Positions 27,885-46,665 of a stretch of 64,000 nucleotides of DNA are shown here, one piece after another. Under the pieces are notes generated by a model that was not told where the DNA came from, made no database searches, and saw nothing but the letters and a program-made list of their open reading frames with translations. Every line of letters starts with the position of its first letter. The first letter of the stretch is position 1. Origin of the DNA: Westiellopsis prolifica IICB1 (GTDB lineage: Bacteria; Cyanobacteriota; Cyanobacteriia; Cyanobacteriales; Nostocaceae); the NCBI RefSeq assembly GCF_004323185.1, contig NZ_NAPS01000002.1, positions 2,507,636 through 2,571,635 on the forward strand, read 5' to 3'. The position numbers were made by a program, and so were the translations under genes.

Positions 27885-28727
27885 ATGAGTAGTCAAGAAA
27901 TCGCCTCTAATCAAGAATTAGTGATTGAGGCTGGACGCACAGAACGTCAATATTGGAAAGACATTTGGCGCTACCGGGAGCTATTATATTTTCTTGCTTG
28001 GCGAGATATTTTGGTGCGTTACAAACAAACTGCGATCGGCATAGCCTGGGCATTGATCCGACCATTTTTAACGATGGTTGTTTTTACCGTAGTATTCGGA
28101 AATTTAGCTAAATTGCCTTCAGAGGGAGCGCCCTATCCAATTTTAGTATTTTCTGCGATGCTCCCCTGGCAATTTTTTGCCAATGCCTTGAGTGAGAGTA
28201 GTAATAGTTTAATTAACAATGCCAACTTAGTTTCTAAAGTATATTTTCCCCGTTTGATAGTACCAATTAGTGCAGTAGTTGTCAGCTTTGTAGATTTCAT
28301 GATCTCCGGCATGATACTGTTAGGATTAATGGCATGGTATAACTTTGTTCCAAATTGGCGAATATTAACTCTACCAGTATTTATCTTGATTGCCTTTGCA
28401 GCATCAATTGGAGTGGGTTTGTGGTTAGCAGCATTGAATGTTGAATATCGCGATTTTCGCTACATAGTACCGTTTATTGTGCAGTTTGGCTTGTATATCT
28501 CGCCTGTGGGCTTTAGCAGTAGTGTTGTACCGTCGCAGTGGCGATTACTTTACTCATTAAATCCAATGGTGGGTGTAATAGATGGCTTTCGCTGGGCAAT
28601 TTTAGGCGGAAATTCACAAATTTACTTACCTGGATTTACACTGTCTGTCGGATTAGTTGCCTTGTTACTAGTAACTGGCATTTGGTACTTCCGCAAAATG
28701 GAACGGACGTTTGCTGACGTAATTTAA
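27885..28727 (+). CDS. ABC-2 type polysaccharide export permease (Wzm-like)
   Basis: Membrane subunit of a polysaccharide ABC exporter, 280 residues with about six transmembrane helices. Family signatures are the start LLYFLAWRDILVRYKQTAIGIAW, the ISPVGFSSS motif near 205 and the conserved LNPMVGVIDGFRWAI near 230. It would move undecaprenyl-linked glycan or O-antigen across the inner membrane with the adjacent ATPase. It is directly followed (15 bases) by the ATPase gene with a strong AAGGAG box. Confidence 0.95.
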   Translation: MSSQEIASNQELVIEAGRTERQYWKDIWRYRELLYFLAWRDILVRYKQTAIGIAWALIRPFLTMVVFTVVFGNLAKLPSEGAPYPILVFSAMLPWQFFANALSESSNSLINNANLVSKVYFPRLIVPISAVVVSFVDFMISGMILLGLMAWYNFVPNWRILTLPVFILIAFAASIGVGLWLAALNVEYRDFRYIVPFIVQFGLYISPVGFSSSVVPSQWRLLYSLNPMVGVIDGFRWAILGGNSQIYLPGFTLSVGLVALLLVTGIWYFRKMERTFADVI

Positions 28728-28742: not shown

Positions 28743-30029
28743 ATGTCTGATACTATGATTCGCGTAGAAAATCTGGGTAAAAAATTTATTATTGCACACC
28801 AGCAAGACAACTCTAATCGTTACCGTTACAAGGCTCTACGAGATGTAATTGCTGATGGAGCTAAATCTCTGACAAAGAGCTTGATTAAGCCAAATCCCAA
28901 AAAAATATCTAACCCTACCCGTGAAGAATTTTGGGCATTAAAAGACGTTTCTTTTGAAATTAAGCAGGGTGAAGCTATTGGTGTGATTGGACGCAACGGA
29001 GCCGGAAAATCAACACTCTTAAAAGTTCTCAGCCGTATTACCGAACCAACAGAGGGACGTATTACTATCAAAGGTAGGGTAGCAAGCCTCCTAGAAGTAG
29101 GAACGGGATTTCATCCTGAACTTACAGGACGAGAGAACATCTTCCTCAACGGTTCTGTTTTGGGGATGAGTAGAGTTGAGATTAAGAAAAAGTTTGATGA
29201 AATAGTTGCTTTTGCGGAAGTAGAAAAGTTTTTAGATACACCAGTCAAGCGCTATTCTTCTGGAATGTATGTGCGCCTTGCTTTTTCCGTTGCTGCTCAC
29301 TTAGAGCCAGAAATTTTAATTGTAGATGAAGTTTTAGCAGTCGGCGATTCTGCATTTCAAAAGAAATGCTTAGGGAAAATGGGAGATGTCGCCACCAAAG
29401 AAGGTCGTACAGTTTTGTTTGTGAGCCACAGTATGCAAGCTATTGCCCAACTCACTAAACGTTGCATATTGCTTTCTAAAGGCAACATCCAGTTTGATGG
29501 TAATACTAGCAAAGCGGTGCAGTTATATCTTACAGGGCAAAAAGAAGATTCCGAACAACCTGGCTATTACCAAGCTCCTACAAACAAAACAGGCAATTAT
29601 GTAGCTTGGGCGCGGGTACATGCTTCCGAAGGAGAAGGAATTCATGCTTGGGGAGAAGCGATTACGTTTGAGTTTGCTCTAAACATCACCAAACCCCATG
29701 AAAGTCTGTGGTTCTCTTTTCAGATACTAAGCGCCTTACAACAACCTATTTGTATTTTCTGGTTTTGTGATCCCGAAGCTCCCTTTCGTCGAGAAACTGG
29801 GACTTTTATTCTACGATGTGAAATACCAAAATTGAGACTCTACATGGGTTCGTACACCTTAACAACATGGTTTTCCGAACGCCGTAGCGAGACTCTGCTA
29901 GAAAATTTGAGGGAAATTTGCCCCTTTGAAATCACCATGCATAAGTACGAACGTCCAGAATATCAATGGCAAGCTGATGAATGTACTTACTTAGAAGATG
30001 CGGTTTGGAAAACTGGAGAAAAATATTAA
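28743..30029 (+). CDS. Polysaccharide export ATPase with C-terminal recognition domain (Wzt-like)
   Basis: ABC ATPase of 428 residues. Walker A GRNGAGKST is at 83-91, the signature YSSGM at 171-175 and Walker B ILIVDE at 191-196, with a conserved HPELTGRENIFLNG segment. An extra C-terminal domain from about 270 to 428 resembles the Wzt carbohydrate-binding beta-sandwich, which recognises the modified terminal sugar of the finished chain. Thus the exporter is likely to accept only a capped polymer. The AAGGAG box lies 10 bases upstream. Partner of the permease just before it. Confidence 0.94.
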   Translation: MSDTMIRVENLGKKFIIAHQQDNSNRYRYKALRDVIADGAKSLTKSLIKPNPKKISNPTREEFWALKDVSFEIKQGEAIGVIGRNGAGKSTLLKVLSRITEPTEGRITIKGRVASLLEVGTGFHPELTGRENIFLNGSVLGMSRVEIKKKFDEIVAFAEVEKFLDTPVKRYSSGMYVRLAFSVAAHLEPEILIVDEVLAVGDSAFQKKCLGKMGDVATKEGRTVLFVSHSMQAIAQLTKRCILLSKGNIQFDGNTSKAVQLYLTGQKEDSEQPGYYQAPTNKTGNYVAWARVHASEGEGIHAWGEAITFEFALNITKPHESLWFSFQILSALQQPICIFWFCDPEAPFRRETGTFILRCEIPKLRLYMGSYTLTTWFSERRSETLLENLREICPFEITMHKYERPEYQWQADECTYLEDAVWKTGEKY

Positions 30030-30053: not shown

Positions 30054-30566
30054 ATGCCAATAAATAATGATGTCAAGTTGGGTAATAATGTGAAAATTTT
30101 TCATCCCCAACTTGTCAACTTGTACAACTGCATCATTGGGGATGACACTAAAATAGGCACCTTTGTCGAAATCCAGAAAAATGTCACCGTAGGCAATCGG
30201 TGTAAAATTTCGTCCCATAGTTTTCTTTGTGAAGGTGTCATCCTGGAAGATGAGGTATTTATTGGTCATGGTGTGATGTTTACTAATGACCTTTATCCCC
30301 GTGCCACAAATGAAGATGGTAGTTTACAAATAGATGATGACTGGGATGTTGTAGAGACAAGAGTCAAACGCTGTGCATCTATTGGTAGCAATGCCACCAT
30401 TCTCGCAGGTGTAACCGTCGGAGAAAAAGCCATCGTTGGTGCGGGAGCAGTAGTGACTCGTGATGTCCCTAATTATGCAATTGTTGCAGGAGTACCTGCT
30501 CGTGTCATAGGTGATGTACGCGATCGCAACCAAAATACACAAATCACAGCCACTATTTCTAGCTAA
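30054..30566 (+). CDS. Left-handed beta-helix N-acetyltransferase (WlbB/WbpD-like)
   Basis: Acyltransferase of 170 residues with hexapeptide repeats ([49 protein letters not shown]). The family segment [24 protein letters not shown] matches WlbB/WbpD, which acetylate the 3-amino group of UDP-2-acetamido-3-amino-2,3-dideoxy-glucuronate. The related dTDP-3-amino-sugar acetyltransferases (FdtC type) are possible, but the following dehydrogenase and aminotransferase favour WlbB. A GAGGGGA box lies 7 bases before the ATG. Confidence 0.86.
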
Positions 30567-30698: not shown

Positions 30699-31742
30699 AT
30701 GGGTAACAACATTAATATCGGTGTAATCGGTTACGGATACTGGGGTCCGAATCTGGTCAGAAACTTTGCGGAAATTCCAGGAACACAAGTAAAAACAGTC
30801 AGCGATTTTAAACCAGAACTGCTGGCAAGGGTACAAGCAAGATACCCCAAAATTGACATTACAACAGACTGCCGCGATATATTTAACGACCCCAAAATAG
30901 ATGCTGTCGCGATCGCCACGCCTGTCTCTACCCACTTCGACTTAGCTTTGGCTGCATTACAGGCTGGCAAGCACGTATTGGTAGAGAAACCAATGACTGT
31001 CTCTTCAGAACAAGCCCTGCGGTTAATTGAAGAAGCAGAAAAACGTAACCTAGTCTTAATGGTGGATCACACCTTTGTTTATACAGGTGCGGTACGTAAA
31101 ATGCGGGATCTGGTAGTTACTAATAGTATTGGTGACATTTATTACTATGATTCTGTGCGCGTCAACTTGGGACTCTTCCAACATGATGTCAATGTTATTT
31201 GGGATTTGGCAGTTCACGACCTTTCAATTATGAACTATGTATTGCCATCTCAACCTTATGCCGTTTCGGCCACGGGCATGAGTCATGTTCCTGGAGAACC
31301 GGAAAATATTGCCTATTTGACCTTGTTCTTTGAAAGTAACTTAATAGCTCACATTCATGTCAACTGGTTAGCACCAGTGAAAGTACGCCGCACACTGATT
31401 GGTGGTAGCCAACGCATGATTGTTTATGATGACTTAGAACCGAGCGAAAAAGTCAAAATCTACGACAAAGGAATAACAGTCAATGGCAATAACTCTGCGG
31501 AAAATGTCTATCAAATGTTGATTGGTTATCGCACAGGAGATATGTGGTCTCCTCATTTAGATATGACAGAAGCACTACGGACAGAAGGATTGCACTTTAT
31601 TAATTGTATTGAAAAAGGCGATCGCCCCATTACCGATGGTCAAGCCGGACTGCAAGTAGTAAGTATTTTGGAAGCTGCTACCCAGTCTATGAAGCAGCAT
31701 GGTCAATTAGTCGAACTGAATTCAGCACAGGTAGCAGTATGA
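30699..31742 (+). CDS. Gfo/Idh/MocA oxidoreductase (WlbA/WbpB-like)
   Basis: NAD-dependent sugar dehydrogenase of 347 residues. The N-terminal Rossmann motif is GVIGYGYWG at 8-16, the catalytic-region EKP (VLVEKPMT) is near 97, and [12 protein letters not shown] then [12 protein letters not shown] is seen further on. WlbA/WbpB oxidises C3 of UDP-N-acetylglucosaminuronate, recycling NAD with 2-oxoglutarate. Its stop overlaps the aminotransferase start by 4 bases (ATGA at 31739-31742). Located between the acetyltransferase and aminotransferase of the same pathway, which strengthens the call. Confidence 0.87.
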
Positions 31743-32848
31743 TTCCATTTGTAGATTTAAAAGCCCAGTACCTAAGTATTAAAGAAGAGATTAATACTGC
31801 TGTCCTTAAGGTATTGGAAAGTACCCAATTTATTTTGGGTAGTGAAGTCACAGCTTTTGAGCAAGAATTTGCTGACTATTGTAATGCCGATTACGGTATA
31901 GCCTTAAATACAGGAACCAGCGCCTTGCACTTAGCATTACTGGCAGCTGGCGTTGGTCCTGGTGACGAAGTCATTACTACACCTTTCACTTTTGTGGCGA
32001 CGGTTGCGGCAATTGTGTACACAGGAGCAACACCAGTATTTGTAGACATTGACCCCGTTTCCTACACCATCGATGTCACCAAAATTGAACAAGCCATCAC
32101 ACCCAAGACTAAAGCCATTCTGCCAGTTCATTTGTATGGACAACCAGCAGACATGAACCCAATTATGGAAATTGCTCGGCGTCATGGTTTGACTGTGATT
32201 GAAGATGCTGCCCAAGCTCACCGCGCTGAATACAAAGGACAACGAGTAGGTAGTATTGGGGATATAGGTTGTTTTAGCTTTTACCCTGGAAAAAATTTAG
32301 GTGCATATGGTGAAGGTGGCGCAGTCGTCACTAATAATCCCGAATATGCAAAAACAATGCGTATGTTGCGTGATTGGGGACAGGAAAGCAAATATCATCA
32401 TGTTCTCAAGGGTTATAACTACCGCATGGATGGGGTACAAGGTGCGATTTTACGGGTCAAATTACGCTACTTAGATCAGTGGACAGAAGCACGCAGGACA
32501 CACGCAGCAGCGTATGATCATCTGCTGACAGATTCTGGTATTACTACTCCTACTGTGATGCCCTACAGTTACCATGTATACCACGTTTATGCAGTACGTA
32601 GCTCTCAACGAGAAAAACTGCAACAACAACTCAACGCCCAGGGTATTCAAACAGGCATTCATTACCCTATTCCTGTACACCTACAAGCAGCTTACGCAGA
32701 TTTAGGCTATAAACCTGGAGATTTTCCTCATTCAGAACTAGCAGCTAGGGAAGAACTTTCACTACCCATGTATGCTGAACTGACCACAGCCCAGGTTCAT
32801 ACCATTGTTGCAACTCTCCAGAGTATTCTTCAGGGAGTTACAGTTTAA
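31739..32848 (+). CDS. DegT/DnrJ/EryC1 aminotransferase (WlbC/WbpE-like)
   Basis: PLP-dependent sugar aminotransferase of 369 residues. The internal aldimine lysine is Lys185 in [15 protein letters not shown]; the cofactor-binding Asp is in VIEDAAQAH near 156. The N-terminus [11 protein letters not shown] is typical. It would transaminate the 3-keto intermediate produced by the preceding dehydrogenase, giving the 3-amino sugar acetylated by the WlbB-like enzyme. Overlaps both neighbours (ATGA with the dehydrogenase; one base with the next gene), so these genes are translationally coupled. Confidence 0.9.
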
Positions 32849-34369: not shown

Positions 34370-35353
34370 ATGACTAATGTATTCTTAATCGGTTTGGGAC
34401 CGACAACTTTCACGGCTTTGGAATCTTTAATTCCCAGTTGCAAGGTGCAAGGGATAGTCAGAAATATAGATCCTAAATCTGAAACAGATGACCCAGTTGT
34501 TAACTTAGGGCAACAGTTCAATATTCCTATATTTATAGATACTTCACTGTCAGACATTAAATCTTTAATTTTAAAATTGCAGCCAGATTGTGTAGTAGTT
34601 TCTTCATATAACAAAATTCTACCACCAGAATTAATTAAATTGTCTACTTTTATCAATGTTCATTATTCGCCTTTGCCTCAATATCGGGGTCGTGCCAATG
34701 TTAATTGGGCAATTATCAATGATGAACCTTGTGCAGCAATCACTATTCATAAAATTTCGCCGGAATTAGATGAGGGGAATATTTTATTTCAACAAACAAT
34801 TCCGATTCACTTAGATAATACCGTAGCTGATATATATAACAGCCTCAATGAAATTCAACGCCAGTATCTAGGAGAAACAGTTGTCAAAGCCTTACATGGC
34901 TATGAAGGTGTACCACAAAACAACTCTGAAGCTACTTATTGTTGTACTCGTTTGCCAGAAGACGGTGAAATTAATTGGTCAAAATCTACTAGACAAATAG
35001 ACTGTTTTATTCGAGCATTAGTCTCTCCTTTTCCTGGTGCTTATACTTACTTTCAAGGGAAAAAATTATTAATTTGGCAAGCCGCTCCAGTAGATAATCC
35101 CTCTACATATGTCGGACGTATTCCTGGTCGAATTATTGGTAAATCAAAATCAGAAGGTTATGTCGATGTTCTGACTGGTGATGGTGTTCTCAGAATTTTG
35201 GAAGTGCAATGGGAAGGCGAAGAAAGAACATCAGCTGCAAATGTTATTAAGTCTGTCAAAAGCACTTTAGGTTTAAGTAAGTCTGAATTACTAAATCGTA
35301 TTCAAATTTTGGAACAAGAAATTACAAAATTAAAAGGAGCCTATGTAAAATAA
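34370..35353 (+). CDS. Sugar formyltransferase-like protein (Fmt/ArnA N-domain family)
   Basis: N10-formyltetrahydrofolate-dependent formyltransferase family, 327 residues. The catalytic triad of the fold is intact: Asn96 and His98 in INVHYSPLPQYRG and Asp134 in ELDEGNILF. It lacks the length and tRNA-acceptor region of methionyl-tRNA formyltransferase, and its location next to amino-sugar genes points to N-formylation of an amino sugar, as in QdtF, FdtF or ArnA. A short coiled tail (ELLNRIQILEQEITKLKG) is at the C-terminus. The target sugar is unknown. Confidence 0.88.
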   Translation: MTNVFLIGLGPTTFTALESLIPSCKVQGIVRNIDPKSETDDPVVNLGQQFNIPIFIDTSLSDIKSLILKLQPDCVVVSSYNKILPPELIKLSTFINVHYSPLPQYRGRANVNWAIINDEPCAAITIHKISPELDEGNILFQQTIPIHLDNTVADIYNSLNEIQRQYLGETVVKALHGYEGVPQNNSEATYCCTRLPEDGEINWSKSTRQIDCFIRALVSPFPGAYTYFQGKKLLIWQAAPVDNPSTYVGRIPGRIIGKSKSEGYVDVLTGDGVLRILEVQWEGEERTSAANVIKSVKSTLGLSKSELLNRIQILEQEITKLKGAYVK

Positions 35354-35546: not shown

Positions 35547-38500
35547 ATGACTACCCTCTTTACCAATCAATCCCCAAGCGTTGCTAATTTCACCGATAAT
35601 GTTCCCTACGAACTAGGCATGAAATTTCGCAGCGCCGCAGGGGGACAAATTACCACCCTTCGGTTTTGGAAAGCTGCTAGCGAGACAGGAACTCATACTG
35701 GTAGGCTGTGGACAGCGACGGGAACTCTCCTAGCAAGCGTGACTTTTTCTAATGAGACTGCTTCTGGCTGGCAGGAACAAGCTCTCAGTACGCCAGTTAA
35801 CATTCAAGCTAACACAACCTATGTAGTCAGTGTCAACGTCAACACTCATTATGTCTTCACCAATGATCAACTGGCTAACTCCATAACCAATGGGGATTTA
35901 AGTTCAGTGGCAGATGGTAACAATGGGGTGTTTAATGGAACTTCAGGAGCCTTCCCAAGCAATTCTTACCGGAATACGAATTATTTTCGTGACATCAACT
36001 TTGTAGTTGTCTCCCTACCGACGATTACAAAGACCGGTGGTGACAATCAGAGTGGTGCGACAGGTGCAACTTTGCCTAACCCCTTAGTTGTTCAGGTCAA
36101 AGACAGTGCTGGTAATCCTCAATCTGGAGTGACGGTGAATTTTGCCGTTACCGCTGGCGGGGGGTCAGTTTCGCCAGCAAGTGCAGTAACTAATGCTAGC
36201 GGTCAGGCTAGTACCACTTTAACGCTGGGAACTGCTACTGGGGCAAGCAGTCCTGTAACTAATACTGTCAGTGCTACAGCAACCGGCGTTGGTAGCGTAA
36301 CCTTTACTGCTACTGCCAACCCTTCAGTGAGCAGCCAAAAGATTTTCACGACTCAAACCCCAAGTAATGCGAATTTGACTGATAACGTCCCCTACGAGTT
36401 GGGCATGAAGTTCCGCAGTGCCAGAGGGGGACAAATCTATGGCGTTCGCTTCTGGAAAGCCTCTAGCGAAACGGGAAGTCATGTTGGCAAAATCTGGACG
36501 GCGACGGGAACTCTCCTGGCAAGCGTAACTTTTGTTAATGAGACTGCTTCTGGCTGGCAAGAGCAGTTGCTAGAAACGCCAGTGAGCATTCAAGCTAACA
36601 CGACCTACGTAGTTTCCGTGAACGCTAACGCTTATTATGCCATAACTTATAATGGATTGGGAAGTTCCATTGTCAATGGTGATCTTAGCTCAGTCGCTGA
36701 CGGCAACAATGGAGTGTACAACGTCAACCCGAATTCTTTCCCAACTAATTCTTACCAAAATAGTAACTATTATCGCGATATCACCTTTGTCGTCGGTAGT
36801 AATTTAATTAAAGTCAGTGGAGACAATCAAAGTGGTGCGACAGGAGCGACTTTACCCAATCCCCTAGTTGTACGAGTCGTAAATGCTCAAAACAATCCCC
36901 AATCAGGCGTCACGGTGAACTTTGCCGTTACCAGTGGCGGGGGGTCAGTCTCGCCCACCAGTGCAGTCACAAATGCTAGCGGTCAAGCAAGTACGACTTT
37001 GACATTAGGGCCAGTACCCACCGCCCCTGGAGGGGTAGTAGTAACCGCGACGGCAGTGGGCATCGGCAGTACCACCTTCTCCGCTTCAGCAACTCCGGCG
37101 AACCCCAATCCCATCTATTTGGAAAATCTGAATACTGGCACAACTAACTGGAAGCTTGTCAACCGAGCCAGTGGTGAAATCGCAGGTTATGCCTCAGCAA
37201 CCAGTGTCAACAAAGGTGGGTCGCTGGACATTAAAGTTTCTCTTGGACAAGCTGGACAGTTTACCATCGACGTCTACCGTCTGGGCTACTATGGTGGCAC
37301 AGGAGGAAGGTTGATGGCCAGCAGCGGTTCGCTCAATGGCACAGTCCAACCAGAATGTACCCTAGACTCTAATACCCGTTTGGTTGAGTGTAACTGGACA
37401 ACTTCCTACGTCTTGCAAGTAGGCAATAACTGGACTAGCGGTATTTATGTTGCCAAGCTGACCGACCAAGCAAGTAGCAAAGTGGCGCATGTGTGGTTTG
37501 TCGTCCGAGATGATAGCAGCACTGCCGATGTCTTGTTCCAGAGTGCCGTTTCTTGTGTCCTAGCGTATAGCACGACTGGAGGCTATAGCTTGTACAACTT
37601 TAACAGTATTGGCGGTCAGCGGGCTTTCAAAGTTTCCTATGACCGACCCTTTTCCCAGGCAAGCAAGCAAGAGTCCTACGAGTTCGATACACCCCTGCGA
37701 TGGGAATACAATATGGTGCGCTGGCTAGAATCTCAAGCTTATAATGTCACCTACACCGACAACATGCAGATTCACGCCAATGGTCAAACATTGCTTAATC
37801 CCAACAAACACAAAGTATTCCTGTCTGTAGGCCACGATGAGTACTGGTCTAAAGAAATGCGTGATGCCGTCGAGGCTGGCCGCACTGCTGGGGTTAACTT
37901 GGGATTTTTCTCTGCCAATACTTGCTACTGGCGAGTGAGGTTTGAAAATTCTACTTCTGCTGCTGGACAAGTGCAACCAAACCGGGTGATGGCGTGCTAC
38001 AAACAAGATTGGGCATCAGATCCAGTTGTCCAGCAGCAAGGAGCATCAGCAGCCACTAATAAATTCCGCAGTGTCCAGAACCAACGACCGGAAAACGCCT
38101 TGCTAGGAATCATGTACGGTAGCGACACCTCAAACCTCTATGGAGGTTATAACTACATCGTCACCAACAGCAACGATCCTTACTATGCAAACACGGGACT
38201 CCAGAATGGAGATCAGCTAGAGCTTTTAGTGGGCTATGAATGGGATTTTAAGGTTAGCAACGGGTCTGCTCCTGCGGGTCTAGTCACCTTGTCTCAGTCA
38301 ACAGTTGTACCTGCTGCCTTATTGCCAACCTTCGACGAACCACCAAACGAACAAACTCTTCCTGCTAACCAGGACTTTACCAAGGCTCACTCAGTTCGCT
38401 ACACAGCCAGTAGTGGAGCTAAAGTTTTTGCTTCTGGCACTAATCAGTGGGCATGGGGGCTAGACAGTGATGATGTTAGTCCAGCTAGGGAAGATATTCG

Positions 38501-38582
38501 AGTCAAGCAAATAACTGTCAATATTTTGGCAGACATGGGAGCTAGACCTCAAACGCCAAATGCAAACCTCATTGTTCCTTAA
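35547..38582 (+). CDS. DUF4082/Ig-like mosaic protein with dimethylformamidase-like C-terminus
   Basis: Large predicted surface protein of 1011 residues built of modules. DUF4082 domain 1 (about 1-155) is followed by an Ig-like domain (about 160-255). A second DUF4082 (about 264-420, KIFTTQTPSNANLTDNVPYELGMKFRS) and second Ig-like domain (about 425-520) follow. Residues 525-1011 resemble the large-subunit domain of N,N-dimethylformamidase (RLGYYGGTGGRLM; VGHDEYWSKEMRDAVEAG; NLGFFSANTCYWRVRF). The two DUF4082-Ig units are also close at DNA level. No signal peptide is visible and an in-frame TAA lies just upstream. G+C looks higher than neighbouring genes, a hint of transfer. The role is unknown; substrate could be glycan or amide. 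Confidence 0.87.
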   Translation: MTTLFTNQSPSVANFTDNVPYELGMKFRSAAGGQITTLRFWKAASETGTHTGRLWTATGTLLASVTFSNETASGWQEQALSTPVNIQANTTYVVSVNVNTHYVFTNDQLANSITNGDLSSVADGNNGVFNGTSGAFPSNSYRNTNYFRDINFVVVSLPTITKTGGDNQSGATGATLPNPLVVQVKDSAGNPQSGVTVNFAVTAGGGSVSPASAVTNASGQASTTLTLGTATGASSPVTNTVSATATGVGSVTFTATANPSVSSQKIFTTQTPSNANLTDNVPYELGMKFRSARGGQIYGVRFWKASSETGSHVGKIWTATGTLLASVTFVNETASGWQEQLLETPVSIQANTTYVVSVNANAYYAITYNGLGSSIVNGDLSSVADGNNGVYNVNPNSFPTNSYQNSNYYRDITFVVGSNLIKVSGDNQSGATGATLPNPLVVRVVNAQNNPQSGVTVNFAVTSGGGSVSPTSAVTNASGQASTTLTLGPVPTAPGGVVVTATAVGIGSTTFSASATPANPNPIYLENLNTGTTNWKLVNRASGEIAGYASATSVNKGGSLDIKVSLGQAGQFTIDVYRLGYYGGTGGRLMASSGSLNGTVQPECTLDSNTRLVECNWTTSYVLQVGNNWTSGIYVAKLTDQASSKVAHVWFVVRDDSSTADVLFQSAVSCVLAYSTTGGYSLYNFNSIGGQRAFKVSYDRPFSQASKQESYEFDTPLRWEYNMVRWLESQAYNVTYTDNMQIHANGQTLLNPNKHKVFLSVGHDEYWSKEMRDAVEAGRTAGVNLGFFSANTCYWRVRFENSTSAAGQVQPNRVMACYKQDWASDPVVQQQGASAATNKFRSVQNQRPENALLGIMYGSDTSNLYGGYNYIVTNSNDPYYANTGLQNGDQLELLVGYEWDFKVSNGSAPAGLVTLSQSTVVPAALLPTFDEPPNEQTLPANQDFTKAHSVRYTASSGAKVFASGTNQWAWGLDSDDVSPAREDIRVKQITVNILADMGARPQTPNANLIVP

Positions 38583-38703: not shown

Positions 38704-39666
38704 GTGACACCATTAAAACGCCGACAATTTACCCAACTGGCCGCTGCCGGTTTGACTTCCACTATTGTTGCCGATATCTCTAGTAAGGCGGTTGCTCAAA
38801 ATAATGGAAAGAGTGAAGAGGTTCTTTATGGAGTAAACCTTCCTAATACAGCCAAGGCTCTCAACCGGGAAGACCAAACTCCGCCAGTGGAATTAGGTAC
38901 TAGCGAAATGGAGACGGGAAGGGTTGTTTCTAGAAGCAATGTACCAGTTCAGTCTGTGGACAATCCATCGTCTGTACGAAAAAAATCTCGTGCCTTCTTT
39001 ACTGGTGACTCTGATCGTGTTACCAAATTAACAGCACCTGGAGATGGAAATTTAGTAATTTCTACAGTTTCTAGTACTAGGAATGGTTATTTTAACCATC
39101 TTATTTATACTGTTGGAGGTGCTAGAAATCCTCAATTCAGAGCGAAAAAAGTTCTGGATTTAGAGGCAGCCAATCAGACTATTGAAAGCTTGTTAAGTCT
39201 TCCCAAAGATCAACTTTTGTGCCTAGTTGGAACTGAGGGTATCCCACCTTTTACTTTTAGAACAATAGATTCCAGAAGTGGTAAAATTCTTTCTGGTGAT
39301 GATCTGGCTCTACCCCCATTGCCGCCTAACTATCGATTTGCTAACCTATGCCAAGATCCGAAGGGAAATATTTTCGCAACCGAGACTGGTCCAGATGGTA
39401 TCCCCGTTTTAATCTTGATGAACTTGCAGGAAAAAGCCACAGTTACTGGCAAGGTTAAAATTCAGAGACTGACTCCACTGAACTTTGAAGGAAGCCCTAT
39501 AATCAACGATCTTAAAGACTTGAATTTCTCTTCCTCTGGTCAATTGTATGCGCTGACTACTGATAAGGGTGGAAAAAATAATGCCCTATTTACGGTAGAC
39601 ACCAGAAGCGGCAAGATGGGACTAGTAAGAGAGTTTCCATTCGAGAAATTTGCGTTCTCTGTCTAG
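38704..39666 (+). CDS. Tat-signal hypothetical protein
   Basis: A 320-residue exported protein starting at GTG 38704. The N-terminus MTPLKRRQFTQLAAAG has a twin-arginine motif, a hydrophobic segment and a likely cleavage near AVAQ at about 32. The mature part alternates short strands and turns (FFTGDSDRVTKLTAPGDGNLVI; RTIDSRSGKIL), consistent with a beta-propeller of a few blades. There is no recognisable catalytic motif. It follows the mosaic protein on the same strand, and an AAGGAG box lies upstream. Because folded proteins use Tat, a cofactor or a folded binding domain is likely. Confidence 0.78.
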   Translation: MTPLKRRQFTQLAAAGLTSTIVADISSKAVAQNNGKSEEVLYGVNLPNTAKALNREDQTPPVELGTSEMETGRVVSRSNVPVQSVDNPSSVRKKSRAFFTGDSDRVTKLTAPGDGNLVISTVSSTRNGYFNHLIYTVGGARNPQFRAKKVLDLEAANQTIESLLSLPKDQLLCLVGTEGIPPFTFRTIDSRSGKILSGDDLALPPLPPNYRFANLCQDPKGNIFATETGPDGIPVLILMNLQEKATVTGKVKIQRLTPLNFEGSPIINDLKDLNFSSSGQLYALTTDKGGKNNALFTVDTRSGKMGLVREFPFEKFAFSV

Positions 39667-39796: not shown

Positions 39797-40771
39797 ATGC
39801 AAAATAGTCGCGTATTAATTACAGGTGGTGCAGGCTTAGTTGGCTCCCATATTGCTGATTTGCTAGTTAACGAGGGAGTTGCGGAAATTGTTGTTTTGGA
39901 TAATTTTACGCGCGGACGACTGGCGAACCTAGCTTGGACAAAAGAACATGGACCTCTGGTGATTGTTGAAGGCGATATTCGAGATCAAAAACTTTTAGCA
40001 GAAGTCATGCAGGGTGTTGATTATGTCTTTCACCAAGCAGCAATCCGTATTACCCAATGTGCAGAAGAACCCCGTTTGGCGTTGGAAGTCCTAGCTGATG
40101 GCACATTTAATGTTTTGGAAGCCGCAGTCAACGCTAAAGTCAAAAAAGTAGTCGCCGCTTCTTCTGCTTCGATTTACGGGATGGCAGAAGATTTCCCCAC
40201 TACTGAATCTCACCATCCCTATAATAACCGTACGCTTTACGGTGCTGCTAAGGTCTTTAATGAGGGATTATTACGTAGTTTCTACGATATGTACGGTTTA
40301 GACTATGTAGCATTACGTTATTTTAACGTCTACGGACCGCGTATGGATATTTATGGTGTTTACACCGAAGTACTGATCCGGTGGATGGATAGAATAGCCG
40401 CAGGTCAACCACCACTAATTTTTGGCGATGGTAAGCAGACTATGGACTTTGTGTATATTGAAGATATCGCCAGAGCAAATATTTTAGCTGCTAAAGCCGA
40501 TGTGACAGACGAGGTATTTAATATTGCTAGTGGTGTTGAAAGCAGTTTGAATGACCTCGCTTATAGCTTGGCTAAGGTAATGGAATCGGACTTGCAGCCA
40601 GAATATGGTCCAGAACGCAAAGTTAACCCCGTACAACGCCGACTTGCAGATGTCAGCAAAGCTGAGAAATTATTGGCTTTTAAAGCAGAGGTCTCTTTAG
40701 AAGAGGGGTTACGTCGGTTGGTGAATTGGTGGCGTTCTGAAAAGCAGACGAAGGAAACAAGTAATGTCTGA
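39797..40771 (+). CDS. NAD-dependent nucleotide-sugar epimerase/dehydratase
   Basis: Extended SDR enzyme of 324 residues. The cofactor motif is GGAGLVGSH at 10-18; the catalytic YGAAK pair lies near 152-156 with SSASIYG before it. The sequence resembles UDP-glucose 4-epimerases and related WbpP/WbiB enzymes, but the substrate cannot be settled. The gene overlaps the following aminotransferase by 8 bases, so the two probably make one amino sugar: an epimerase/dehydratase step then transamination. Confidence 0.92.
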   Translation: MQNSRVLITGGAGLVGSHIADLLVNEGVAEIVVLDNFTRGRLANLAWTKEHGPLVIVEGDIRDQKLLAEVMQGVDYVFHQAAIRITQCAEEPRLALEVLADGTFNVLEAAVNAKVKKVVAASSASIYGMAEDFPTTESHHPYNNRTLYGAAKVFNEGLLRSFYDMYGLDYVALRYFNVYGPRMDIYGVYTEVLIRWMDRIAAGQPPLIFGDGKQTMDFVYIEDIARANILAAKADVTDEVFNIASGVESSLNDLAYSLAKVMESDLQPEYGPERKVNPVQRRLADVSKAEKLLAFKAEVSLEEGLRRLVNWWRSEKQTKETSNV

Positions 40772-41975
40772 AAAAATACAAACTATACCGATTGCCAAAC
40801 CCTGGCTGGGTGAAGCCGAAGCAGAAGCATCTAGGCGTGCAATTATGTCTGGGTGGGTGACACAGGGGCCGGAAGTCTCCGCCTTTGAGCAGGAGTTTGC
40901 TGCTTATGTAGGGGGAAAATATGCTTGCGCTGTTTCCAATTGTACAACAGCTTTACACCTAGCACTGTTAGCTGTGGGAGTGCAGCCTGGGGATGAAGTG
41001 ATTACTGTCAGTCATTCCTATATTGCCACCGCCAACAGTATCCGTTATTGTGGGGCAATCCCTGTGTTTGTGGATATTGAACCACAGACATATAACATTA
41101 ACCCGATGTTGATTGGAGATGCGATTAGCGATCGCACTCGCGCTATTCTCATTGTCCACCAAATGGGGATGCCTTGCGACCTCAAACCCATCTTGGACAT
41201 TGCCCGTAATCACAGTTTACCAGTCATTGAAGATGCAGCCTGTGCGATCGCCAGTGAAATTCTCTGGGACGGGAAGTGGGAGAAAATCGGTAAACCACAC
41301 GGTGATATTGCCTGCTTTTCCTTTCATCCCCGCAAAGTGATCACCACTGGTGACGGGGGAATGCTAACCACCAATAACCCAGAATGGGACAAGCAGTTTC
41401 GCCTCTGGCGTCAACACGGAATGAGCGTTCCTGATACCGTGCGTCACGGAGCAAAACAGGTGATATTTGAGTCTTACCCCATGCTGGGTTATAACTATCG
41501 GATGACTGATATCCAAGCAGCAGTTGGACGGGAACAACTCAAACGCCTCCCAGCAATTGTCGAGCGTCGGCGTTATTTGGCACAACGGTATCAGGACATG
41601 TTGGCGGATGTACCCGGTTTGAAATTACCGACAGAACCAGCTTGGGCAAAAACTAACTGGCAGAGTTTCTGTGTGAGGTTGCCAGAAAAATGTGACCAAG
41701 TGCAAGTGATGCAGGTAATGCTAGATGCTGGAGTATCGACACGTCGGGGAATTATGTGCGCCCATCGGGAACCAGCTTATAGTATAGAAGCTTGGTCTTG
41801 TGGAATTGATGGTGATGCTTGTGATTGCAAACAAGGAAACTGTCAGCGCCTCACTGAAAGTGAACAAGCTCAGGATCATACAATTATTTTGCCACTGTTT
41901 CACCAGATGACCGAGCAGGAACAAAATCGGGTGGTTGAGGTTATGAAAACAGCTTGTGAACCGATTTTGGATTAA
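40764..41975 (+). CDS. DegT/DnrJ/EryC1 aminotransferase with C-terminal cysteine motif
   Basis: PLP-dependent sugar aminotransferase of 403 residues, similar to perosamine-synthase-type enzymes. The Schiff-base lysine is in CFSFHPRKVITTGDGG at about residue 192; PLP Asp is in VIEDAACAI. Unusually, the segment CGIDGDACDCKQGNC near 352-366 packs four cysteines into 15 residues, suggesting a metal or disulfide element absent from the WlbC-like paralogue at 31.7 kb. It overlaps the epimerase by 8 bases. A terminator-like hairpin at 42141 ends the segment. Confidence 0.92.
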   Translation: MSEKIQTIPIAKPWLGEAEAEASRRAIMSGWVTQGPEVSAFEQEFAAYVGGKYACAVSNCTTALHLALLAVGVQPGDEVITVSHSYIATANSIRYCGAIPVFVDIEPQTYNINPMLIGDAISDRTRAILIVHQMGMPCDLKPILDIARNHSLPVIEDAACAIASEILWDGKWEKIGKPHGDIACFSFHPRKVITTGDGGMLTTNNPEWDKQFRLWRQHGMSVPDTVRHGAKQVIFESYPMLGYNYRMTDIQAAVGREQLKRLPAIVERRRYLAQRYQDMLADVPGLKLPTEPAWAKTNWQSFCVRLPEKCDQVQVMQVMLDAGVSTRRGIMCAHREPAYSIEAWSCGIDGDACDCKQGNCQRLTESEQAQDHTIILPLFHQMTEQEQNRVVEVMKTACEPILD

Positions 41976-42204: not shown

Positions 42205-43866
42205 ATGAAGCAATTAGCAAACGATACACTCAGCCTTTGGCGTGAAGAAGGTAAACAGCAGATTCAACAAAATTATCAGGAATTTCGCAATTTAGTTGTT
42301 CAAGCCAAAGATCATCTCGCTCGTGGTAACTATAATGTTGCAGCAGTATATGCACAAATGGCAGCTCTATATGGCTTTTGGCGACATAGTGGTTTATTTG
42401 TCAGTCCAGAACTAGAGCAAATTCTGATTACCATTGGATTAAAAACCATACCAAATTTTCCCAAGCAAAATATATTACTACCTGGTAAACAAAGGAGAGT
42501 CTTACATGTAGCCAGTGCAGTACAAAGCATTGGTGGACTTGGTAGAATGATTTGGCGCTGGATAGAACAAGATACAGAAAGTACTCATTCCCTTGTTTTA
42601 ACTCAACAAGCTTCTGCCTATGTACCCAAGATTATTAAAGATGCTGTTTCCAAAAGCGGCGGCAAAATATACTCTTTAAATGAAACTACGATTGGCGGTA
42701 TGTTGTCTTGGGCAAGAAAATTACGCAAAATAGCTGCATTTGCAGATGTAGTAATTTTGCATATCTGGCCAGATGATGCAATTCCCCTCATCGCCTTTGC
42801 TAATAAAGAACAATCTCCACCCGTTCTTTTTTTAGATCACGCTGATCACGGCTTTTGGCTAGGAGCTAGTATCAGTGATGTTGTAATTAATCTGCGTACT
42901 TCTGGAATGCTTCTAGCACAAGAACGTAGAGGTATTGCAGCTGAACGGGTTGCCCTTTTACCAATCATTTTACCTGCTATCCACAGAACTATTTCCCGCA
43001 CCGAAGCCAAACAAAAATTGGGCTTAGACTCAAACAGTATTCTTTTGCTATCCATCGCCAGAGCGCCAAAATACAAGACAATTAATGGTACAAACTTTGC
43101 TGATGCCCATGTTCCACTTTTAGAAAAATACGACAATGCAGTTTTAGTAGTAATTGGCCCAGGTGACAGCGAAGATTGGTCAGCAGCAGTTGAGCGGACA
43201 GGAGGAAGAATTAAAATATTTGCAGAGCGGGAAGATACGGCAGTATTTTACCAAGCTGCTGATATCTACGTAGACTCATTTCCGATTATTTCCATCACAT
43301 CATTACTAGAAGCTGGCAGCTATGGTGTACCTTTAGTAACTCGTTATCCCTACTCCGATGCTTGCGGTATTATTGGTTCTGATGCCCCAGGTTTAGACGA
43401 AAATCTCCTACGTGCAGGTAATCTTGAGGAATATACAGAAATTCTATCTCGCTTGGTTGAAGATGAACAATTTAGATTATCCCTCTCAGAAGCAACCAAG
43501 AAATCTATTAGTGATCAACACATGGGAAGTAACTGGCAAGATTCCCTAGAGAAAATTTATGCTCAGGCTAATAACTTACCTCGCGTAGACTTCAATTGTA
43601 ATTTACAAGATGAAGTGTATTTTGGTGAACCAGATATATTATTGCCGCAAATATTTTTCCACGCTTGCGGACAAGAAAAAATCGATCCAGAAAGCCTGAA
43701 GAAATGGCAGATGATGCCGTTTAATCAAAGATTCTTGTTCTGGATGAATCAACTCAAAACAAAAGGTTTTGGTCGCAATGGGAAGATAGACTTGCTTCTA
43801 CCTCAATGGCTTTATTTGAATTTAAGAAAATATGTCATCGATGTTGTTAAAAAAAGCATAGCTTGA
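42205..43866 (+). CDS. Glycosyltransferase, GT-B like, with N-terminal helical extension (paralogue 1)
   Basis: Protein of 553 residues. About 1-90 form a helical region with the motif YNVAAVYAQMAALYGFWRHSG. Residues from 100 resemble a GT-B transferase: RVLHVASAVQSIGGLGRMIWRW, then the donor half with LLSIARAPKYKTINGTNF, RIKIFAEREDTAVFYQAADIYVDSFP and SITSLLEAGSYGVPLVTRYPYSD. The paralogue at 44968-46665 is closely similar (the core segments match at most positions). The pair flanks a GT2 gene. The C-terminal 80 residues are unique and hydrophobic. The acceptor is unknown. Confidence 0.87.
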   Translation: MKQLANDTLSLWREEGKQQIQQNYQEFRNLVVQAKDHLARGNYNVAAVYAQMAALYGFWRHSGLFVSPELEQILITIGLKTIPNFPKQNILLPGKQRRVLHVASAVQSIGGLGRMIWRWIEQDTESTHSLVLTQQASAYVPKIIKDAVSKSGGKIYSLNETTIGGMLSWARKLRKIAAFADVVILHIWPDDAIPLIAFANKEQSPPVLFLDHADHGFWLGASISDVVINLRTSGMLLAQERRGIAAERVALLPIILPAIHRTISRTEAKQKLGLDSNSILLLSIARAPKYKTINGTNFADAHVPLLEKYDNAVLVVIGPGDSEDWSAAVERTGGRIKIFAEREDTAVFYQAADIYVDSFPIISITSLLEAGSYGVPLVTRYPYSDACGIIGSDAPGLDENLLRAGNLEEYTEILSRLVEDEQFRLSLSEATKKSISDQHMGSNWQDSLEKIYAQANNLPRVDFNCNLQDEVYFGEPDILLPQIFFHACGQEKIDPESLKKWQMMPFNQRFLFWMNQLKTKGFGRNGKIDLLLPQWLYLNLRKYVIDVVKKSIA

Positions 43867-44967: not shown

Positions 44968-46665
44968 ATGGAAACAATTAATAATCAACTTCAGATATGG
45001 CAAGAAGAAGCAAGCCAAAACATTGAAAAACATTTCAACATTTTTCAAGAATTAGTAACTCAAGCACGGGAATTTGCTGAAGGTGGTAAGTATGATGCAG
45101 CAACAGTATATGCAGATGTGGCAGCTTCCTATGCATTCAGGCGTCATTGCGGTCTTTTTGTCAGCCAAGAACTTGAGCAAATTCTCAGAGAAATTGGTCA
45201 AAAAGGTATAAAAGCAAATTCCTTTTCTTCTAGTCAAAAACTCAACCAAAAATCTCATCAACCCAGAAGAGTTTTACATGTTGCTACTGGGGTTAAGGGT
45301 ATTGGCGGACTTACTAGAATGATTTGGCGATGGATTGGACAAGATAGTGAGAGTTGTCACTCTCTTGTATTAACACGCCAACCACTGAACCATGTACCAA
45401 CCATTCTCAAAGATGCAGTCCTCAATAGTCATGGTGATTTGTATACGTTGAGTGAAATCTTCGGATTTGTCTCAGCAGCAAAACGACTACGCCAAATTGC
45501 TGAATCAGCAGATATGGTAGTGTTACATATATCCCCAGATGATACGATTCCCATTATTGCTTTTGCCAATAAAGAACAATCTCCGCCTATTCTATTTTTA
45601 GATCACGCCGATCACGCTTTTTGGTTGGGAGCGAGCATCAGTGATGTTGTGATTAATCTCCGCTCTGCTGGAATGCGCCTGTCGCAAGAACGTAGAGGTA
45701 TTGAGGCTGAACGCATCGCCCTACTACCGATTATTTTACCTCCCACTCAAAGAAATCTTTCTCGTACACAAGCAAAGCGAAAGCTTGGTTTTGAGGACAA
45801 TAACCTACTACTACTCTCTATTGCTAGAGCGCCTAAGTATAGGACTATTGATGGAGTTAACTTTGCAGATGCACACGTTCCATTATTGGAAAAATACGAA
45901 AATGCTGTTTTAGTAGTCATTGGTCCAGGTAATAGTGAGGATTGGTCAACAGCAGTTGAGAGAACACAGGGAAGGATCAAAATTTTTCCAGAGCGTGAAG
46001 ATACTGCTGTTTTTTACCAAGCTGCTGATATTTATGTTGACTCGTTTCCTTACGTTTCTATTACTTCGTTATTGGAAGCTGGAAGTTATGGTGTACCTTT
46101 GGTAAGTCGCTATCCCTACTCTGATTTATCTGCTGTCTATGGTGCGGATGCACCTGGTCTTGATGATAATTTAATTCGCCCACGTAATCTTGAGGAGTAC
46201 ACAGCGATTTTATCCCGCTTGGTCGAAGATGAAGAATTTCGATTCAGCCTCGGTGAAGCAACTCAAAAGCGCATCAAACAAGTGCATACGGAAAGTTATT
46301 GGCAACGTGCAGTAGAAGATATATACGTCCGTGCTGCTCGTATGTCTCAAGTCACTAACAAATTGACTACGATAGATCGAACATCTATTAGTGAACTGGA
46401 TGTTTTATTGATGCATCTGTTTTTCCTAACCTTTAGCCAACAAGAGGTTCAGGTTGAGGAAATGATTAAAGACCGTGCTACTACTATACCTTATGCTCAA
46501 AAATTGTATATTTGGATGAAGTTGCTGAAAAAGCATAACTTGCATTGGGTTGATCAGATCAATTTTTTGCTGCCGATTTCGCTGTCTAAAGCCTTACGAA
46601 AAAGCATTTTATTGTGCCTGAAACTAACAAAAACTCTTGAAATTAAGAAAATGATCAAATCATAG
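44968..46665 (+). CDS. Glycosyltransferase, GT-B like, with N-terminal helical extension (paralogue 2)
   Basis: A 565-residue homologue of the transferase at 42205. Shared features are the N-terminal YDAATVYADVAASYAFRRHCG, IGGLTRMIWRWIGQDSES, FLDHADHAFWLGASISDVVI, FADAHVPLLEKYENAVLVVIGPGNSEDW and SITSLLEAGSYGVPLVSRYPYSD. Divergence is concentrated in the N-terminal linker and last 110 residues, which probably set acceptor choice. A truncated MITE lies upstream. Confidence 0.87.
   Translation: METINNQLQIWQEEASQNIEKHFNIFQELVTQAREFAEGGKYDAATVYADVAASYAFRRHCGLFVSQELEQILREIGQKGIKANSFSSSQKLNQKSHQPRRVLHVATGVKGIGGLTRMIWRWIGQDSESCHSLVLTRQPLNHVPTILKDAVLNSHGDLYTLSEIFGFVSAAKRLRQIAESADMVVLHISPDDTIPIIAFANKEQSPPILFLDHADHAFWLGASISDVVINLRSAGMRLSQERRGIEAERIALLPIILPPTQRNLSRTQAKRKLGFEDNNLLLLSIARAPKYRTIDGVNFADAHVPLLEKYENAVLVVIGPGNSEDWSTAVERTQGRIKIFPEREDTAVFYQAADIYVDSFPYVSITSLLEAGSYGVPLVSRYPYSDLSAVYGADAPGLDDNLIRPRNLEEYTAILSRLVEDEEFRFSLGEATQKRIKQVHTESYWQRAVEDIYVRAARMSQVTNKLTTIDRTSISELDVLLMHLFFLTFSQQEVQVEEMIKDRATTIPYAQKLYIWMKLLKKHNLHWVDQINFLLPISLSKALRKSILLCLKLTKTLEIKKMIKS

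Follow-up and report, generated by a model that had tools for sequence, protein, structure and literature searches.

Two enzymes are the closest described relatives of the protein studied here: DmfA2, the large subunit of Paracoccus dimethylformamidase (DMFase; PDB 6lvb), and an N-acetyl-(R)-beta-phenylalanine acylase (PDB 8huy, 8i59, and 8i5a), by its name an N-acyl amide hydrolase. Here, we investigated a gene on the forward strand, at positions 35547 to 38582 of a 64,000-nucleotide stretch of DNA from the cyanobacterium Westiellopsis prolifica IICB1 (NCBI RefSeq assembly GCF_004323185.1, contig NZ_NAPS01000002.1, positions 2,507,636 to 2,571,635); this whole stretch is called the window below, and positions are counted from its first letter. 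A single intact open reading frame (ORF) encodes a 1,011-residue protein, which belongs to the DMFA2_C family, with an architecture and a setting that are new for it. Like DmfA2, the window protein has an immunoglobulin (Ig)-like domain I and a ThuA-like alpha/beta domain III, with matching metal-site residues and a catalytic histidine. Unlike DmfA2, it lacks the pentraxin-like domain II, carries DUF4082-Ig modules, and lies in a glycan locus, and the two are only ~21% identical. The acylase is both the top structural match, tied with DMFase within about 1 Z, and the top PDB sequence match, but its N-terminal half differs from that of the window protein. The polysaccharide N-deacetylases PgaB, IcaB, and PelA have other folds and resemble the window protein in its proposed role, acyl removal from exported amino-sugar polymers; however, the polysaccharide-deacetylase (NodB type) profile is not among the ten Pfam families that match the window protein at E up to 1. 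Among PDB entries, a profile search returned DMFA2_C relatives under two enzyme names only, DMFase and the one acylase, and dimethylformamide was introduced in 1893 as a man-made solvent (excerpt of PMC7686228). The natural job of this two-tyrosine metal fold is therefore in question.

The original prediction, made by a model from the letters of the DNA, called the role of the protein undescribed, and we found no contrary report in the open-access literature naming DUF4082 or dimethylformamidase (family accessions were not searched, and most subscription papers lie outside this scope). Judged by titles and abstract starts, the open-access literature naming dimethylformamidase does not describe a DMFA2_C-type protein in a glycan locus; that literature includes a paper on sialic acid transport (PMC11801797). 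Nothing specific was found in open-access literature on N-deacetylation of Wzt-type cyanobacterial glycans. DUF4082 itself appears in a table of predicted secreted Methylococcus proteins, in the part of PMC4257694 available to us.

Pfam identifies two copies of DUF4082 (PF13313; E 7.3e-87; singly 156.9 and 155.8 bits against a cut-off of 28.4) and two Big_1 Ig domains (PF02369; E 4e-15; 56.1 bits against a cut-off of 34.9), followed by DMFA2_C (PF20254) at residues 573–973 (E 1.4e-105; 354 bits against a cut-off of 27). The last match covers profile positions 1–369 of 374 and is thus nearly full-length. The features of the gene are as follows.

35547 to 38582, + strand: DUF4082-Big_1-DUF4082-Big_1-DMFA2_C protein, 1,011 residues, signal peptide not visible (ORF and Pfam)
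35553 to 36011, + strand: DUF4082 unit 1, residues 3–155 (Pfam)
36018 to 36320, + strand: Big_1 Ig domain 1, about residues 158–258, approximate borders (Pfam and AlphaFold2 model)
36339 to 36797, + strand: DUF4082 unit 2, residues 265–417 (Pfam)
36798 to 37097, + strand: Big_1 Ig domain 2, about residues 418–517, approximate borders (Pfam and AlphaFold2 model)
37170 to 38543, + strand: dimethylformamidase-like region, residues 542–999, Ig-like domain I and alpha/beta catalytic domain III without the pentraxin-like insertion (Pfam, model, and excerpt of PMC7686228)
38538 to 38579, + strand: conserved C-terminal tail, with IVP or a near variant at the end in most of the leaderless group and absent from paralogues with a hydrophobic N-terminus (alignment)

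An AlphaFold2 model was built from a 52-sequence alignment (mean predicted local distance difference test [pLDDT] score 88.6, predicted TM score [pTM] 0.60). Residues 542–999 of the model superimpose on the acylase 8huy with a Z score of 33.5 (414 residues aligned, 2.8 Å, 21% identity) and on Paracoccus DMFase 6lvb with a Z score of 32.1 (417 aligned, 2.9 Å, 21% identity), consistent with the fold of domains I and III. The next match down scores far lower (8aa2_G, Z score of 14.3, 211 aligned over the catalytic-domain region, 4.0 Å). The model and the superposition show no pentraxin-like domain II (residues 74–337 of DMFase), as the matching region has 458 residues, of which 411–417 align across chain residues 1–756, leaving no room for it. 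Together with the Pfam matches, the superposition bears out a tandem of DUF4082-Ig units ahead of a C-terminal dimethylformamidase-like domain, as originally predicted. The DUF4082 region of the full-length model gives Z scores of 10–12 with a PHR domain and with baseplate proteins of phages, too loose a resemblance for naming a function.

The iron ligands of DMFase are Y399, Y440, and E521, and H519 is essential; the Y440A and E521A mutants lose both iron and activity, and H519A also lacks activity (all from the excerpt of PMC7686228). The metal-site residues (two tyrosines and one carboxylate) and the catalytic histidine have counterparts in the window protein.

37566 to 37568, + strand: Y674, matching iron ligand Y399 through a weak segment (profile alignment)
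37593 to 37595, + strand: Y683, probable match of iron ligand Y440 by spacing (profile alignment)
37833 to 37841, + strand: H763-D-E765, matching catalytic H519 and iron ligand E521 (profile alignment)
37917 to 37919, + strand: N791, matching active-site N547 (profile alignment)

The significant profile-alignment segment to 6lvb places E765 on E521, H763 on H519, and N791 on N547. Y674 falls on Y399 via weak segments (−2.8 bits to 6lvd and 6.4 bits to the acylase). Y683 lies 6 residues before the start of the significant segment and Y440 lies 5 before it, an offset of one residue, and by this spacing Y683 is the probable counterpart of Y440. None of the five residues varies across the 52 aligned sequences, the window protein among them. 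Among actinobacterial relatives (a profile alignment of 54 rows, 20 of them gapped fragments), all five are kept in 31 of the 34 rows with the five columns filled, the exceptions being L157, L167, and L173 (labels of this form are our locus names). The original prediction had offered missing catalytic residues as a sign that the protein is a structural filler; they are present, and the retention of the metal-site residues makes a filler unlikely. The enzymatic role that it considered possible is supported by the predicted fold and by the conservation of the putative metal site; the adhesive role that it offered beside this is conceivable as well.

Tentatively, we read the protein as a metallo-amidohydrolase of the surface or matrix that is dedicated to the amino-sugar glycan of its locus and hydrolyzes the N-acyl amides of that glycan; it may trim the cell’s own sugar coat. 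The surrounding locus would make and export an amino-sugar glycan, and the DUF4082 and Ig modules, which may bind glycan, would hold the protein on it. Two tyrosines and a glutamate of the C-terminal domain would coordinate a metal ion, probably Fe3+, and this domain would hydrolyze the amide of N-acyl (acetyl or formyl) amino sugars to give the free amine. The protein would be exported without an N-terminal signal, with type I secretion as the leading candidate.

The placement of the gene in a glycan locus, also part of the original prediction, is confirmed by Pfam: 16 of the 20 neighboring genes have a match at 1e-5. The locus also carries glycosyltransferases. Genes around that of the enzyme are listed here with the names used below.

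27885 to 28727, + strand: Wzm-like ABC-2 permease (Pfam, NCBIfam)
28743 to 30029, + strand: Wzt-like glycan export ATPase (Pfam, NCBIfam)
30054 to 30566, + strand: hexapeptide sugar N-acetyltransferase-like protein, HexAT (Pfam, nearest solved structures)
30699 to 31742, + strand: Gfo/Idh/MocA nucleotide-sugar dehydrogenase-like protein, MocA (Pfam, NCBIfam)
31739 to 32848, + strand: DegT aminotransferase 1, DegT1 (Pfam, NCBIfam)
34370 to 35353, + strand: formyltransferase (Pfam)
38704 to 39666, + strand: beta-propeller protein with a twin-arginine-like N-terminus (predicted model; in 30 of 34 loci, a homologue directly follows the enzyme gene)
39797 to 40771, + strand: NAD-dependent epimerase/dehydratase (Pfam, NCBIfam)
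40764 to 41975, + strand: DegT aminotransferase 2, DegT2, nearest solved structure a perosamine synthetase (Pfam, nearest solved structure)

The nearest solved relative of HexAT is a lipopolysaccharide acetyltransferase (3mqg), and QdtC is listed too. The best NCBIfam match of MocA is UDP-GlcNAc 3-dehydrogenase at 175 bits, well below the cut-off of 450, so the exact sugar cannot be named.

A scan of named genomes gave 41 loci, of which L052–L084 are 33 cyanobacterial relatives that match essentially the whole protein and are 57–96% identical to it in their best segments; an actinobacterial relative, L086, is distant, at 33% identity. The 33 named orthologues and the window make up a set of 34 cyanobacterial loci, which are related by descent and whose counts are not independent. 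In this set, Wzt is found in 31 loci, Wzm in 26, MocA in 29, HexAT in 29, and DegT, both kinds pooled, in 30. An epimerase is present in 28 of the 34 (21 of the window kind and 7 of another). By a stricter count, MocA, the window-kind epimerase, and DegT2 occur together in 20 of the 33 named loci, and MocA with DegT2 in 8 more. In even draws from the phylum, DMFA2_C is present in 14 of 292 cyanobacterial genomes, and some part of the window protein is matched in 21 of 386. Within the 292-genome draw, an orthologue of the epimerase (E up to 1e-100) occurs in 10 genomes and window-group proteins in 8, with 5 shared (Fisher 7.9e-7, kinship uncorrected); the 8 genomes were counted by our own reading, and one of them, G070, lacks DUF4082. 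Pairwise distances between the gene and its neighbors correlate best for Wzt (Spearman 0.77), the propeller protein (0.64), and Wzm (0.59), above HexAT2 (0.36), MocA, and HexAT; by these values, the enzyme seems linked more closely to export than to any particular sugar. Two enzyme relatives, L012 (G149) and L013 (G048), have other N-terminal regions. By eye, the N-terminal stretch of L013 resembles the DUF4347 domain of large leaderless secreted proteins.

The link extends to a second phylum. In actinobacteria, the order is rearranged, with DMFA2_C first and then the DUF4082 units. A phylum-wide draw of 296 genomes had 52 matching DMFA2_C, from which 40 regions of 33 genomes were taken. These comprise 4 fusions (in 2 of them, MocA, epimerase, and DegT2 are present at ≥55% identity), 34 DMFA2_C regions without DUF4082, and 2 regions without DMFA2_C by profile. 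The two fusions without the cassette are L152 and L184, the latter a longer copy of L166 that starts at a contig end. The cassette was seen in 0 of the 34 regions without DUF4082, several of which are shortened by contig ends. A second draw, of 150 genomes of one order, had 41 with DUF4082, and 20 strong regions from 18 genomes were picked non-randomly; all 20 are fusions, and 8 have MocA, epimerase, and DegT2 at 64–78% identity to the window or L086 proteins. Pooled with L086, the cassette accompanies 11 of 25 fusions versus 0 of 34 non-fusions (Fisher 1.6e-5, a guide only, since the draws were of unequal breadth and the regions are related to one another).

The acyl steps of the locus vary. 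A second hexapeptide acyltransferase is found in 24 of the 34 loci and a formyltransferase in 4, never both, with neither in 6, as if the second acyl step had been swapped and the N-acyl group kept with a change of kind. The formyltransferase of L075 and L105 sits between DegT1 and the epimerase, a slot that the second acyltransferase takes in other loci. A specific formyltransferase link, in which the enzyme would be an N-formyl sugar deformylase, was rejected: although tempting in the window, it meets a formyltransferase present in only these 4 of 34 loci and, outside that set, at L105 and at L193, of which L193 lacks the enzyme. We keep it only within the reading of any N-acyl group. The 336-residue protein encoded at 32848 to 33858 matches neither Pfam at 1e-5 nor NCBIfam at 1e-10 and, by eye, may be an oxidoreductase of the Rossmann type; it occurs in 5 of 34 loci, 4 of them with the formyltransferase.

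The original prediction that the protein lacks a signal peptide agrees with our inspection: none was visible by eye in the window protein or its 33 named orthologues. The open frame reaches only 11 codons upstream of the start (a 1,022-residue open frame), which would hardly accommodate one. Judged by eye, the named orthologues begin at DUF4082 or just before it. Those of L074, L075, and L084 have N-terminal extensions of ~17 residues ending in AQAQ-like letters, and L064 and L073 are longer only given a TTG start. The short extensions of L074, L075, L084, and L026, ending AQAQ/AQSQ-like and with no obvious hydrophobic core, could be a remnant or an unusual export signal. The only paralogue in the window genome (L002) has a hydrophobic N-terminus, and some actinobacterial fusions, such as L244, have a plausible signal peptide by eye. 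The tail at the C-terminus of the window protein may be partly structural, as a stretch resembling it in L086 runs on into the next domain. In the window genome, 5 HlyD-type places score above the family cut-off; 1 of 14 control genomes reaches this cut-off, and 13 of 14 match at a lax threshold. We compared HesF of Anabaena for its export route alone, not for homology: it is an abundant exoprotein without a signal peptide whose export depends on HgdD/TolC (excerpt of PMC4390845).

Several observations weigh against this proposal. Five of the 33 named orthologues have neither the full cassette nor MocA with DegT2, and L069 and L083 keep only the gene and its propeller partner. Conversely, an epimerase orthologue and most of the cassette occur without the enzyme gene in 5 other cyanobacterial genomes, which suggests that the protein is an accessory and not part of sugar synthesis; four of the six epimerase loci in these genomes have a different, longer ABC protein with 27–30% identity to Wzt. 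Among 16 other cyanobacterial regions, the full cassette is found in only 1 of 5 further fusions (in one of the others, L097, the contig ends on the side that matters) and in 1 of 9 DMFA2_C loci without DUF4082; a relative of this last kind that has the cassette is L099. In actinobacteria, 14 of 25 fusions lack it at the chosen cut-off, and L152 lacks it even in 20 kb more on either side. The distances of the gene follow those of MocA (0.33) and HexAT (0.32) weakly. Pfam reports no RTX calcium-binding repeat in the window protein at E up to 1 (type I substrates without RTX exist outside this test), so type I export is an analogy only. Furthermore, Paracoccus DMFase needs a small subunit of ~15 kDa for activity and does not cleave acetamide, according to the excerpt of PMC7686228.

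Some of these points would fit a true metallo-amidase with another substrate, one that has the glycan merely as an anchor and obtains nitrogen or carbon by cleaving small amides, N-acyl amino acids, or peptides. Both solved relatives are small-amide hydrolases (the acylase by its PDB name), and the cassette is missing from L069, L083, and the 14 actinobacterial fusions. However, DUF4082 fusions are linked to amino-sugar cassettes in two phyla, which would be odd in a scavenging enzyme, and DMFA2_C loci without DUF4082 rarely have the cassette (0 of 34 actinobacterial and 1 of 9 cyanobacterial); we consider such a substrate somewhat unlikely.

A non-catalytic role as an adhesin or matrix protein, with the DMFA2_C fold turned into a glycan-binding module, is unlikely, too. 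The number of DUF4082 units does vary from 1 to 3 per cyanobacterial fusion, as in adhesins (3 in L060, L065, and L070; 1 in L084, L025, L026, L012, and L013), and the catalytic-domain region matches 8aa2_G, a chain of a levan utilization machinery that we take to be a surface glycan-binding protein. Nevertheless, all five active-site residues are invariant, whereas in a mere binding module one would expect some of them to be lost. Finally, a cytoplasmic enzyme acting on a lipid- or nucleotide-linked sugar ahead of Wzm/Wzt export would suit the missing signal peptides and the close agreement of distances with Wzt, the best of six families, but seems quite improbable, as DUF4082 and Big_1 are modules of exported proteins (the excerpt of PMC4257694 lists a signal peptide for a DUF4082 protein of Methylococcus, and actinobacterial fusions have plausible ones) and the downstream propeller partner has a twin-arginine-like N-terminus.

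At E up to 1, Pfam returns no family for the propeller partner. Its predicted model (pLDDT 82.6) best matches the calcium-activated nucleotidase 2h2u (Z score of 15.8, 236 aligned, 3.9 Å), too general for naming a function. A homologue is present in 26 of the 34 loci, with 5 more of a divergent kind. The enzyme and the propeller form a conserved gene pair, kept even in L069 and L083 without the glycan cassette. Elsewhere in the locus, two related glycosyltransferase genes at 42205 to 43866 and 44968 to 46665 (553 and 565 residues) flank a GT2 gene, apparently a local duplication.

The DUF4082-Ig units of the gene repeat at 780–786 nucleotides, and blocks of 300, 110, 62, and 56 nucleotides share 76%, 85%, 82%, and 79% DNA identity, far above chance. 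The phrase “nearly identical in parts,” used of the repeats in the original prediction, holds for short stretches only. The two DUF4082 copies of the window protein are 72.5% identical at the protein level. Across 28 two-unit proteins, copies within one protein average 73% identity (64–92%), and comparisons between genomes give 76% for first copies, 76% for second copies, and 71% crosswise. From these identities, the duplication looks old, with some exchange between copies possible.

The gene was also predicted to be richer in G+C than its neighbors, and its G+C (0.486) and third-position G+C (GC3, 0.458) are the highest of the 18 genes compared, with the aminotransferase gene at 40764 close behind (0.482 and 0.438). 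The accompanying hint of foreign origin did not hold up. In all 33 named orthologues, G+C is above that of the flanks, and in 32 of them GC3 also surpasses the flanking-ORF median. The gene and most of its neighbors have their closest named relatives together, at this locus in the same genomes (L052 and L053). As high G+C is conserved across the family, it is no mark of recent transfer into the window genome, and we rejected a recent foreign origin, within an analysis that covered pairwise-distance correlations rather than a gene tree. High expression was not supported as the cause of the high GC3: codon similarity to nine phycobilisome genes is 0.39–0.52 by domain, below the median of 0.565 for 46 window ORFs.

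Returning to the proposed amidohydrolase of the locus’s own glycan, a broader claim, possible but doubtful, is that these proteins form a new class of glycan N-deacylases (deacetylases or deformylases), in which a two-tyrosine, one-glutamate iron site is fused to DUF4082 glycan-binding modules and tailors the cell’s own surface polymers in cyanobacteria and actinobacteria; export in cyanobacteria would be leaderless, with the C-terminal tail as the candidate signal. For a metal fold whose natural job is in question, the link to amino-sugar glycan loci in two phyla offers a concrete and testable answer, that it may remove acyl groups from the cell’s own polysaccharide. The same link gives DUF4082 a setting and a likely function.

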